Of a stretch of 64,000 nt of DNA, positions 55,452-57,415 are shown in pieces. The DNA lies in NCBI RefSeq assembly GCF_900103365.1, contig NZ_LT629703.1, positions 1 through 64,000 of the forward strand, given 5' to 3'. A program made the position numbers and the translations under genes. Origin of the DNA: Afipia sp. GAS231. GTDB lineage: Bacteria; Pseudomonadota; Alphaproteobacteria; Rhizobiales; Xanthobacteraceae. Within the stretch, counting starts at the first letter, position 1, and the number at the start of each line of letters is the position of its first letter. The notes under the pieces are model-generated. The model ran no database searches. It was not told the DNA's origin and was given only the letters and a program-made list of their open reading frames with translations.

Positions 55452-55856
55452 ATGTCCGATCACCTGAAAGAAATTCCGCCCGCAGCCCAGTTGCTCGGTC
55501 GGGAAATCATTTCGGTCGATCCACAATCCGGCGAGGTGACACTGCGATTCACGGCGAAAGAGGAATTCGCCAACCGCCACGGCACCGTGCAAGGTGGCAT
55601 GCTGGCGGCGATGCTGGATTCCGCGACCGGCAATGCGATGATGGCGAGATTACCGTCGCATTTGACGGCGGTCACGACCCGCCTCGACACGCAGTTTCTG
55701 AAGCCGGCTGCGCTCGGCCCGATCACGGCGACCGCGCGCCTCATTCGCCAGGACGAACGCAACGCCGAGGTGCAGGGTGAACTCACCGACGGCAACGGCA
55801 TCGTCGTCGCAACCGCCCGCGCCGAATTGCGCCTTCGCGAGCGCAAGGTATCCTGA
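55452..55856 (+). CDS. PaaI-like hotdog thioesterase
   Basis: 134 residues from ATG 55452, 16 bases after rimO. Hotdog-fold motif: EFANRHGTVQGGMLAAMLDS, the family pattern H-G-x-x-x-G-G-x-x-x-x-x-x-D. End: IVVATARAELRLRERK. Likely an acyl-CoA thioesterase. The open frame continues upstream inside rimO, but the family begins here. Confidence 0.85.
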   Translation: MSDHLKEIPPAAQLLGREIISVDPQSGEVTLRFTAKEEFANRHGTVQGGMLAAMLDSATGNAMMARLPSHLTAVTTRLDTQFLKPAALGPITATARLIRQDERNAEVQGELTDGNGIVVATARAELRLRERKVS

Positions 55857-55893: not shown

Positions 55894-55923
55894 TTGACAT
55901 CATCAGCCGTTCGGCTGTATGGC
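55894..55923 (+). promoter_or_regulatory. Sigma70-type promoter with palindrome in the spacer
   Basis: Consensus -35 TTGACA (55894-55899), 18-bp spacer, -10 TATGGC (55918-55923). The spacer contains the perfect inverted repeat CAGCCGTTCGGCTG (55904-55917), a possible operator. The start would fall near 55930, almost on ATG 55932. Confidence 0.5.
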
Positions 55924-55931
55924 CCTCGCCC

Positions 55932-56021
55932 ATGAACCTCAACCGGACCAACCGCCGCGCATCTTTCCGTCGTCGCTCCAGCGACGATGATGGGTTGCGC
56001 CGTGTCCGACGAGACAGCTGA
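55932..56021 (+). CDS. Arginine-rich leader peptide (29 aa), putative attenuator ORF
   Basis: ATG 55932 to TGA 56019-56021. The 29-residue product has ten arginines, in runs R8-R9, R13-R14-R15, R23-R24 and R26-R27 (MNLNRTNRRASFRRR ... LRRVRRDS). No Shine-Dalgarno is present. The predicted transcript start lies within 2-3 bases of the ATG, so it may be leaderless, as known for the trp leader peptide of Sinorhizobium. Codons CGT CGT CGC form one arm of a hairpin (TCGTCGC-TCCA-GCGACGA). A terminator-like stem follows 24 bases after the stop, then the argD-like gene. All of this fits control by arginine-dependent ribosome stalling (inference). Confidence 0.5.
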   Translation: MNLNRTNRRASFRRRSSDDDGLRRVRRDS

Positions 56022-56045
56022 TTAACTAGATCAGCAACTTTTCGA

Positions 56046-56074
56046 GAAGGCCGCACCCAAAAAGTGCGGCCTTC
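56046..56074 (+). terminator. Terminator/attenuator stem-loop before the argD-like gene
   Basis: GAAGGCCGCAC (56046-56056), loop CCAAAAA, GTGCGGCCTTC (56064-56074), then TTGCGTT: a perfect 11-bp stem with a weak T tail. Its left arm GGCCGCACCC (56049-56058) can instead pair with GGGTTGCGCC (55992-56001) in the leader ORF: nine pairs and one bulge on each side. That gives an alternative antiterminator. Confidence 0.65.
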
Positions 56075-56120
56075 TTGCGTTCAAGCCCGCCTCTTCACCA
56101 GACCTCGACAGGAGACCAAC

Positions 56121-57317
56121 ATGACCAACGCCATCCATCCGTATGACGCGCTGATGAACATCACCGCGCGACCGCCGACCGTCTTCGTCAAGGGAGACGG
56201 CGCCTATCTCTGGGACGATAGCGGCAAGCGCTATCTCGATTTCATGCAGGGGTGGGCCGTCAATTGCCTCGGCCACTCGCCGGCCATCGTCGCCGACGCG
56301 CTGGCAGCGCAGGCGAAGCAACTGCTGACCCCCAGCCCGGCCTTCTTCAACGGACCGAGCCTGAAACTCGCCAATGCGCTGGTCGCCAACAGCTGTTTCG
56401 ACCAGGTGTTCTTTGCCAATTCCGGCGCCGAAGCTAATGAAGGCGCGATCAAGCTGGCGCGCAAATTCGGTACGCTTTACAAGGGCGGCGCGCATGAAAT
56501 CATCACCTTTGTCGGTGGCTTCCACGGCCGTACGCTGGCGACCATGTCGGCATCGGGCAAGAAGGCGTTCGAACCGCTGTTCGAACCCAAGGTGTCAGGC
56601 TTCCCGAAGGCGCAGCTCAACGATATCGAGTCCGTCAAGCGACTGATATCGACCAAGACGGTGGCCGTGATGCTGGAGCCGATCCAGGGCGAAGCCGGCG
56701 TCTGGGCGGCGACCGATCAATTCCTGCGGCAGTTGCGCGCGCTGACCCAGGAGCGCGGCTTGCTGCTGATCGTCGACGAGATCCAGACCGGCATGGGCCG
56801 GACCGGCAAGCTGTTTCACTACGAACATGCCGGCATCGAGCCCGACATCATGACGCTCGGCAAAGGCATCGGCGGTGGCGTGCCGCTGGCGGCGTTGCTG
56901 GCCACCGAATATGCGTCCTGTTTCGAACATGGCGACCAGGGTGGCACGTTTAACGGCAATCCGCTGATGTGCGCGGCGGGACTGGCGGTGCTCGAACATG
57001 TCGCCGCGCCGGCGTTCTTGAAATCGGCTGTCGAAGCCGGGCTATTTCTGGAAAGCGAGTTGCAAAAGTTGTCGGCGCGGCATGGTCTCGGCGAAGTGCG
57101 TGGCCGCGGCCTGTTGCTGGCACTCGATCTCAAGCTGCCGATCGGCGCCTCGATCGTGGCACAAGCGTTTGCGGAGGGCGTGCTGTTGAACTCGCCTCAG
57201 CCGGATGCGCTGCGCTTCATGCCGGCGCTCAATGTCTCCAAGGAGGAGATCGCGGACATGATCGGATGTCTGGATACGATCCTGACCAAGGCGGGTGCGG
57301 CGCGGATGGTGGCGTAG
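56121..57317 (+). CDS. argD: Acetylornithine aminotransferase-like class III aminotransferase (ArgD-like)
   Basis: 398 residues from ATG 56121 (AGGAG seven bases upstream). PLP enzyme of the ArgD/aspartate aminotransferase family: [44 protein letters not shown] (Asp contacting PLP) and [11 protein letters not shown] (Schiff-base Lys). Probable role is the N-acetylornithine step of arginine synthesis. Related enzymes act on succinylornithine or other omega-amines, and no other arg genes are adjacent. The arginine-rich leader upstream supports the arginine assignment. Confidence 0.8.
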
Positions 57318-57325
57318 TTGAGTTC

Positions 57326-57405
57326 GTCATTCCGGGATGGTCCGAAGGACCAGACCCGGAAGTTCGAGATTCCGGGTTCGATGCTACGCATCGCCCCGGA
57401 ATGAC
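57326..57405. repeat. Palindromic intergenic repeat with CATTCCGGG ends
   Basis: Begins gtcattccgggatggtccga and ends atcgccccggaatgac. It contains nested palindromes GGTCCGAAGGACC and CGATGCTACGCATCG. It lies between the convergent argD-like and quinone oxidoreductase genes. I recognise this element as common in Bradyrhizobium. A degenerate partial copy may lie at about 62697-62740. Confidence 0.8.
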
Positions 57406-57415
57406 CTGCCCAAAC

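Follow-up and report, generated by a model that had tools for sequence, protein, structure and literature searches.

A putative ribosome-mediated and mostly leaderless arginine attenuator upstream of argD in Pseudomonadota

Organization of the argD locus

The window is the whole 64,000-nucleotide stretch of the Afipia sp. GAS231 genome that was analysed (contig NZ_LT629703.1, positions 1 to 64,000), and it holds, between a thioesterase gene and an argD-like gene, a promoter-like sequence, a short arginine-rich ORF and several potential RNA stems. The features are:

55452-55856, + strand, thioesterase gene upstream of the leader
55894-55899, + strand, promoter hexamer TTGACA (direct read), with TATGGC at 55918-55923 after an 18-nt spacer
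55932-56021, + strand, leader peptide ORF MNLNRTNRRASFRRRSSDDDGLRRVRRDS, stop included, 29 codons, without a Shine-Dalgarno-like motif
55944-55948 with 56004-56008, + strand, outer arms of hairpin 1 (CGGAC with GTCCG; span 55944-56008)
near 55957-55960 with 55997-56000, + strand, middle helix of hairpin 1 (GCGC), which closes over segment 2
55968-55976 with 55981-55989, + strand, inner part of hairpin 1, CGTCGTCGC (codons 13-15) with GCGACGATG
55992-56001, + strand, segment 2 (putative antiterminator) GGGTTGCGCC, able to pair with 56049-56058
56043-56056 with 56064-56077, + strand, terminator-like stem with a 7-nt loop and a T-poor tail
56110-56114, + strand, Shine-Dalgarno-like AGGAG of argD, outside the terminator-like stem
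56121-57317, + strand, argD-like acetylornithine transaminase gene, PRK03715 type, 398 aa (NF002985, PF00202)

The gene that follows the leader belongs to arginine synthesis, and what had been called argD-like can be specified as a PRK03715-type acetylornithine transaminase, which scores 640.8 bits with NF002985 against a cut-off of 568. The same genome encodes a second ArgD elsewhere (locus L002; 43% identity, PRK01278 type), directly before the ornithine carbamoyltransferase (ArgF) gene, and the region upstream of this second argD contains no Arg-run ORF. In a tblastn search with the organism's own ArgF, which covered flanks of 1.5-3 kb where the contig allowed and left out L195-L234 (~0.5 kb around the gene start), ArgF was found at L002 and beside none of the PRK03715-type argD genes searched. 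At ~1310-1400 of L002, a terminator-like hairpin (CGTGCCGCCTCAAAAGGCGGCACGTTTTGTTTT) comes immediately after a promoter-like TTGACA...TAGAAT, leaving no leader peptide in the interval, and this canonical argD may carry its own attenuator of another kind. Right behind the argD gene of the window, a palindrome-like stretch was noticed by eye at 57327-57406 (ATTCCGGGATGGTCC ... CCCCGGAATGAC), which is perhaps a dispersed repeat or a terminator.

The original prediction had described the parts of a trp-style attenuator, and all of these are present. The consensus -35 box lies where it was placed, the leader ATG at 55932 follows the first T of TTGACA by 38 nt (direct read), and on sequence grounds the transcript is predicted to start at ~55930-55932, i.e. 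at the leader ATG. Ten of the 29 leader codons encode Arg, as claimed, and they form four clusters (R8-9, R13-15, R23-24 and R26-27) plus one single (R5); the peptide has no Pfam match. The CGT CGT CGC run is indeed the left arm of a hairpin, the perfect 11-bp stem (56046-56056 with 56064-56074) extends to 14 bp through three further pairs, including a G-U, and segment 55992-56001 can pair with the left arm of that stem, through a helix that contains a bulged U and a break. The short T tail, already named as the weak point, is a real one: the stem is strong but its U run is broken, whereas long T runs follow the stem in many distant members of the group. A consensus promoter and terminator scan of the window lists neither the promoter, because its second hexamer is poor, nor the stem at 56043-56077, because its T run (TTCTTGCGTT) is interrupted.

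Folding of the region from the leader to the argD start gave an MFE z of -6.07, with 0 of 200 shuffles as low, and z values of -3.28 for the ORF stretch and -4.90 for the terminator stretch. The antiterminator stretch (55992-56058) had a z of -3.58 (2 of 200 shuffles as low), and the antiterminator fold and the terminator are of about equal stability (-25.6 versus -26.8 kcal/mol). No Rfam family reached its gathering score in the window, which therefore yielded no riboswitch, no T-box and no match to RF02884, the family discussed below.

Conservation among Bradyrhizobium-type loci

The close-relative set comprised 94 loci, made up of 80 out of a larger number of related loci plus 14 found among 149 genomes of the family (own genome included). 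An ATG-initiated ORF that spans 20-34 codons and includes seven or more Arg lies upstream of argD in 92 of the 94 (among the matches listed), and the two exceptions are L033, which meets a contig end, and L064. At L064 (1-480) the leader and promoter are gone, and another ORF, which we take to be a transposase end, stops just before a terminator-like stem that has been kept in front of argD; this locus offers a natural test of leader loss. One of the 92, L025, has a divergent leader (MQYASTNARRRRRARRFSAGAWDMRTR) and was excluded both from the alignment described below (A1) and from the promoter and Shine-Dalgarno count, which covered 91 loci. Among the matches listed, TTGACA occurs 36-39 nt 5' of the leader ATG in 91 of these 91 loci (at 38 in 74), and a Shine-Dalgarno-like 4-mer precedes one of the 91 leaders versus all 91 argD genes. 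In B. japonicum, 320 transcription starts were mapped 0-10 nt before annotated start codons, as given in the available part of the report (PMC4842269), so leaderless mRNAs are ordinary in the genus.

Among the matches listed there are 84 distinct leaders, with ORFs of 87, 90 or 93 nt that contain 8-12 Arg each, and the spacer between leader and stem takes seven lengths (25-32 nt); since the ORFs differ by entire codons and the spacer varies freely, the reading frame is held and the spacer is not. At four loci (L035, L080, L089 and L091), R15 has become His and the opposite arm carries the compensating change, such that pairing is kept and the Arg is lost.

R1, a covariance model built on the leader, gave 13 matches of at least 114 bits in the 149 family genomes, each ~30-60 nt before an argD ortholog, and a strong match was missing from one of the 14 ortholog-bearing genomes (G037, divergent leader). 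At an E value of 0.01, weak matches (at most 33 bits) appeared in 40 further genomes, together with some second matches (at most 37 bits); none of those read at G043, G003 and G046 is a leader, and no R1 match above 37 bits beyond the 13 pointed to a second leader copy before another gene in the 149 genomes. Taken with the conservation, the TTGACA spacing and the in-frame length changes, the specificity of R1 excludes a chance ORF for the Bradyrhizobium type.

Covariation and alternative pairing

An alignment of 85 leaders (A1) contains three nested helices with Arg codons in the 5' arm, followed by the terminator-like stem, and 96.8% of its cells are paired. Changes on both sides of a pair were seen in 28 cells, compared to 3.8 in shuffles, and at six pairs, compared to 2.3, and structures slid by 1-3 columns did worse (at most 55.7% paired and at most nine such cells). 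The outer helix, with 99.5% of cells paired, is nearly invariant, the middle helix is paired in 90.3%, the inner helix of hairpin 1 has three pairs changed on both sides, and the terminator helix has 97.6% of cells paired and likewise three pairs changed on both sides. Because they hardly vary, the outer helix and the stop-codon hairpin say little. Hairpin 1 (1:2) and the terminator (3:4) covary modestly, with the inner helix and the terminator helix supplying the support.

Pairing of segment 2 with the left arm of the terminator reaches a mean of -15.9 kcal/mol in the 85 leaders (-12.3 to -19.4), versus -11.5 for a shuffled segment. In 210 of 5000 trials, partners swapped between species did equally well, which makes covariation of the antiterminator (2:3) weak. 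The predicted potential to form the mutually exclusive hairpins 1:2, 2:3 and 3:4 is conserved. A lack of conservation of the ORF or of either stem, which had been named as grounds for refuting the prediction, is contradicted by the Bradyrhizobium-type loci: the ORF and both stems are kept there and the stems covary modestly. Covariation of the antiterminator helix is weak.

Leaders before distant argD orthologs

The original prediction was framed around Bradyrhizobium, and the element is conserved there; an element confined to that genus is ruled out, however, by the Arg-run leaders found before distant orthologs. At a threshold of E 1e-110 or better, orthologs were found in 8 of 385 genomes of the class (2 from the own genus), in 26 of 299 genomes of the phylum (7 from the own genus), and, for two other orders, in 17 of 120 and 8 of 15 genomes, some of which recur between these searches. 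The resulting distant set comprised 44 loci, L025 included. An ATG ORF with at least three consecutive Arg codons (RRR) lies within 340 nt upstream in 23 of the 44, compared to 72 of 1760 dinucleotide shuffles, and such an ORF with a terminator-like hairpin behind it occurs in 14 of the 44, compared to 6 of 1760. By the criterion used, 9 of the 23 RRR leaders have no terminator-like hairpin, and 21 of the 44 orthologs have no RRR ORF, leaders with RR only being excluded from these counts. Upstream of 11 paralog matches from the own genome, an RRR ORF was found in 3 and the combination with a hairpin in 0; since 3 of 11 paralog upstreams stand against 23 of 44 orthologs, an Arg run by itself counts for little in DNA this rich in G+C, and the combination of run and hairpin is the better test for distant loci.

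The distant leader peptides differ widely (MLNLANRNRRRRSPAALARAR, MSPRTRIRVSRRRACV, MKKLNTLTNITSLRRRRS, MNMIRTLLRRRSPLPLPGKPCA, MNTKFNDALRRRITTSGMRSCGRRQP), as do the terminator sequences, while the layout is kept, which supports the trp-style reading first proposed. In 18 leaders that were picked by hand, with the best hairpin behind each taken and L107, L108, L110, L119, L127, L128, L144 and L146 among those left out, complementarity between the leader and a terminator arm beat the shuffle mean in 18 of 18 (mean z -1.39), with P at or below 0.05 singly in 5 of the 18. In leaders of the L143 type, the complementary segment starts right behind the stop codon.

One family (f212) has the gene in 175 of 200 genomes, and an Arg run was seen in 40 of 68 upstream regions read, one of them (L201) doubtful; the 68 combine 28 that came with the search itself and 40 selected to cover a range of genera. 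In 33 of these 40 leaders, the ATG is preceded at a distance of 36-37 nt by TTGAC or TTTAC. In one genus (g409), by comparison, the 19 loci read have the argD ortholog and no Arg-run leader; these loci (L120-L122 and 16 of L167-L191) come from genomes of ~1.7-2.2 Mb, and other genera of the same family have the leader. On a tree of 60 rows, with leader labels set by eye (L119, L127, L128, L134, L135, L136 and L141 counted as leader-bearing), the label needs eight changes, at least four of them forced by well supported branches, and both one early gain with losses and several gains would accommodate this history. Downstream of argD at L133 (2777-2953) there is a Mn2+ riboswitch (RF00080, 106.2 bits), which is unrelated to the leader.

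Arg codon choice and the distribution of ArgR

In 21 distant leaders (the 23 RRR leaders without the doubtful L135 and L136), CGT, CGC or CGA accounts for 75 of 76 run codons, versus 227 of 403 Arg codons in their argD genes, and 20 of the 21 begin their run with CGA, versus 14 of 403, although the P values of this comparison overstate its significance because the rows are related. Of all 64 RRR ORFs, L135 giving two, 59 open their run with CGA, and the 241 run codons include 3 CGG, the rest being CGT, CGC or CGA. The A of the first CGA has a mean pairing probability of 0.66, so structure may itself ask for CGA at this position. In the Bradyrhizobium type the main run begins with CGT or CGC, and CGA is codon 26 in 88 of 89.

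One tRNA, tRNA-Arg(ICG), reads CGU, CGC and CGA. It is possible, though we hold this to be doubtful, that the element is a phylum-wide sensor of tRNA-Arg(ICG) rather than of arginine generally, and the main arginine control of argD in organisms without ArgR. Under such a one-tRNA reading, placing CGA, with its inosine:A codon pairing, first would fix the stall at the first run codon, and the switch would respond to this tRNA's charging, supply or A-to-I editing. ArgR (PF01316) was found in 1 of the 57 ortholog-bearing genomes examined (G713), and the same search was positive in 9 of 14 controls, including E. coli and B. subtilis. At the argD locus of G713 (L124) there is no RRR leader upstream, and a strong hairpin with a T run lies just before the gene.

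Relation to the Rfam family RF02884

The argD leader at L125 matches RF02884 (BcKCsr7) with 92.6 bits. This family is filed in Rfam as a Burkholderia sRNA gene with no role given, and its consensus contains AUG AAC CGC UUC CUG UCC GCU CUC CGA CGC CGC CGC UCG CCG CUC CUC, which can be read as the peptide MNRFLSALRRRRSPLL. The window itself does not match the family. L125 was the one match among 14 leader loci, and its genome the one above cut-off among 150 genomes of that order, with six weaker matches; RF02884 is therefore ruled out as a name for the whole leader family.

The Bc_KC_sr7 RNA, also called nc5U30 or RIT34, is described in the accessible part of its report as an expressed sRNA of 147 nt at 2,967,641-2,967,787 of Burkholderia cenocepacia J2315 (PMC10987360). 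The portion of a second study available to us reports 82 short transcripts that derive from 5'UTRs via processing or attenuation, and the words arginine and ornithine are absent from its main text (PMC5688073). If the 147-nt RNA and the 157-nt model share a 3' end, the RNA would start ~4 nt before the AUG. As the L125 leader matches RF02884, a short expressed leader RNA of a homolog is thus already on record (Bc_KC_sr7/nc5U30).

A model for attenuation of argD

The leader parts, their conservation and their mutually exclusive pairings are observed, and the same logic is carried by other sequences before distant orthologs. In our judgement, these features make it probable that the leader is a ribosome-mediated, mostly leaderless arginine attenuator of argD that is distributed over Pseudomonadota, for which we infer the start site, stalling, termination and arginine response set out here. 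RNA polymerase would start on the leader ATG or no more than a few bases from it, so that ribosomes would load on the 5' end of the transcript. When Arg-tRNA is scarce, a ribosome would stall at R5, R8-9 or R13-15 and cover the left arm of hairpin 1, and the freed segment 2 would pair with the left arm of the terminator, allowing polymerase to read into argD. When Arg-tRNA is ample, the ribosome would pass the Arg codons, hairpin 1 would reclose behind it over segment 2, the stem at 56043-56077 would form and transcription would end. In other lineages, a ribosome at the stop codon would cover segment 2; for the L143 type, the complementary segment would stay open with a ribosome at the first Arg codon and be covered by one at the stop codon. 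Stalls were placed with general values for the ribosome footprint. Since codons 23-27 overlap segment 2 or follow it, the early Arg clusters are the likelier stall sites; a role in release does not suit R23-R27, which might hold the ribosome over segment 2.

Other explanations of the locus have to be weighed against this model. The filing of RF02884 as an sRNA gene, the place of Bc_KC_sr7 among expressed sRNAs (PMC10987360, in its accessible part) and the trans roles that available sections of two reports describe for the Sinorhizobium trp leader products rnTrpL and peTrpL (PMC10117765, PMC7298713) could mean that the leader RNA is mainly a trans-acting sRNA, or that the peptide acts in trans, with the position before argD being secondary. 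We regard this as improbable, since the peptide and RNA sequences change almost wholly between lineages while the Arg run, the hairpin and the position before argD stay; a trans role may also be added to argD control rather than replace it. A comparably small likelihood attaches to direct sensing of a metabolite or protein by the RNA (an arginine or polyamine riboswitch, or an RNA-binding protein), with the Arg codons a by-product of a G+C-rich stem: several Arg codons do lie in paired arms and the four loci with R15 replaced by His keep the pairing, but ORF length varies by whole codons only, promoter spacing is leaderless with no Shine-Dalgarno motif, distant leaders have the Arg run in common and lack overall sequence similarity, and the window has no Rfam riboswitch match.

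That control acts through Rho or through translation of argD, instead of an intrinsic terminator, seems still less probable: the weak T tail of the Bradyrhizobium type and the 9 of 23 distant RRR leaders without a terminator-like hairpin would suit it, whereas the argD ribosome site at 56110-56114 lies outside the stem and long T runs stand behind the stem in many distant members. Least credible is a stem that simply terminates the thioesterase gene, with an ORF produced by chance. Gene and stem do share a strand, the stem being ~190 nt downstream, and chance RRR ORFs occur in 3 of 11 paralog upstreams, yet a conserved strong -35 box separates gene and stem, and the conservation of the ORF in 92 of 94 loci (among the matches listed) and the shuffle results point away from chance.

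Significance and comparison with known systems

If the attenuator model is true, bacteria without ArgR (56 of the 57 ortholog-bearing genomes examined) gain a way to sense arginine, and the Rfam sRNA family RF02884 gains a role. The natural series of leaders around one gene makes codon choice (CGA first) and ribosome geometry testable, and the leaderless start simplifies a reporter test of the argD leader.

The fungal arginine attenuator peptide, a nascent peptide that senses free arginine on the eukaryotic ribosome, resembles the argD leader in exerting arginine control through a leader peptide, and we know of no sequence that the two have in common. A bacterial arginine attenuator of this kind was not found in the open-access literature, and arginine would be a new amino acid for the classical proteobacterial attenuators as that literature presents them: it is not among the amino acids named for the attenuators of Vitreschak 2004 in the available parts of two papers that cite them (PMC1262725, PMC10117765), one of which names T-boxes for arginine in other species (PMC1262725). 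The Salmonella speF leader likewise combines Arg codons in a leader ORF with alternative RNA folds, a likeness by description drawn from part of the report, but controls ornithine decarboxylase (PMC6386406). Pseudomonas carAB is also an arginine-pathway gene with a proposed attenuator, though one that the accessible text ties to pyrimidines and ArgR, and the authors saw no leader peptide start in P. syringae, according to the same text (PMC4997734).

The closest parallel is with Sinorhizobium meliloti trpL (rnTrpL), for which the available part of PMC10117765 describes a short ORF with codons for the product of the pathway that starts at the RNA 5' end, alternative hairpins and a gene of the same pathway behind. 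The argD leader differs from trpL in its amino acid (arginine, not tryptophan), its gene and its sequence, and its response to arginine is a prediction. By the model proposed here, the argD leader would work by the same kind of mechanism as the histidine, threonine, phenylalanine and branched-chain amino acid attenuators of proteobacteria.
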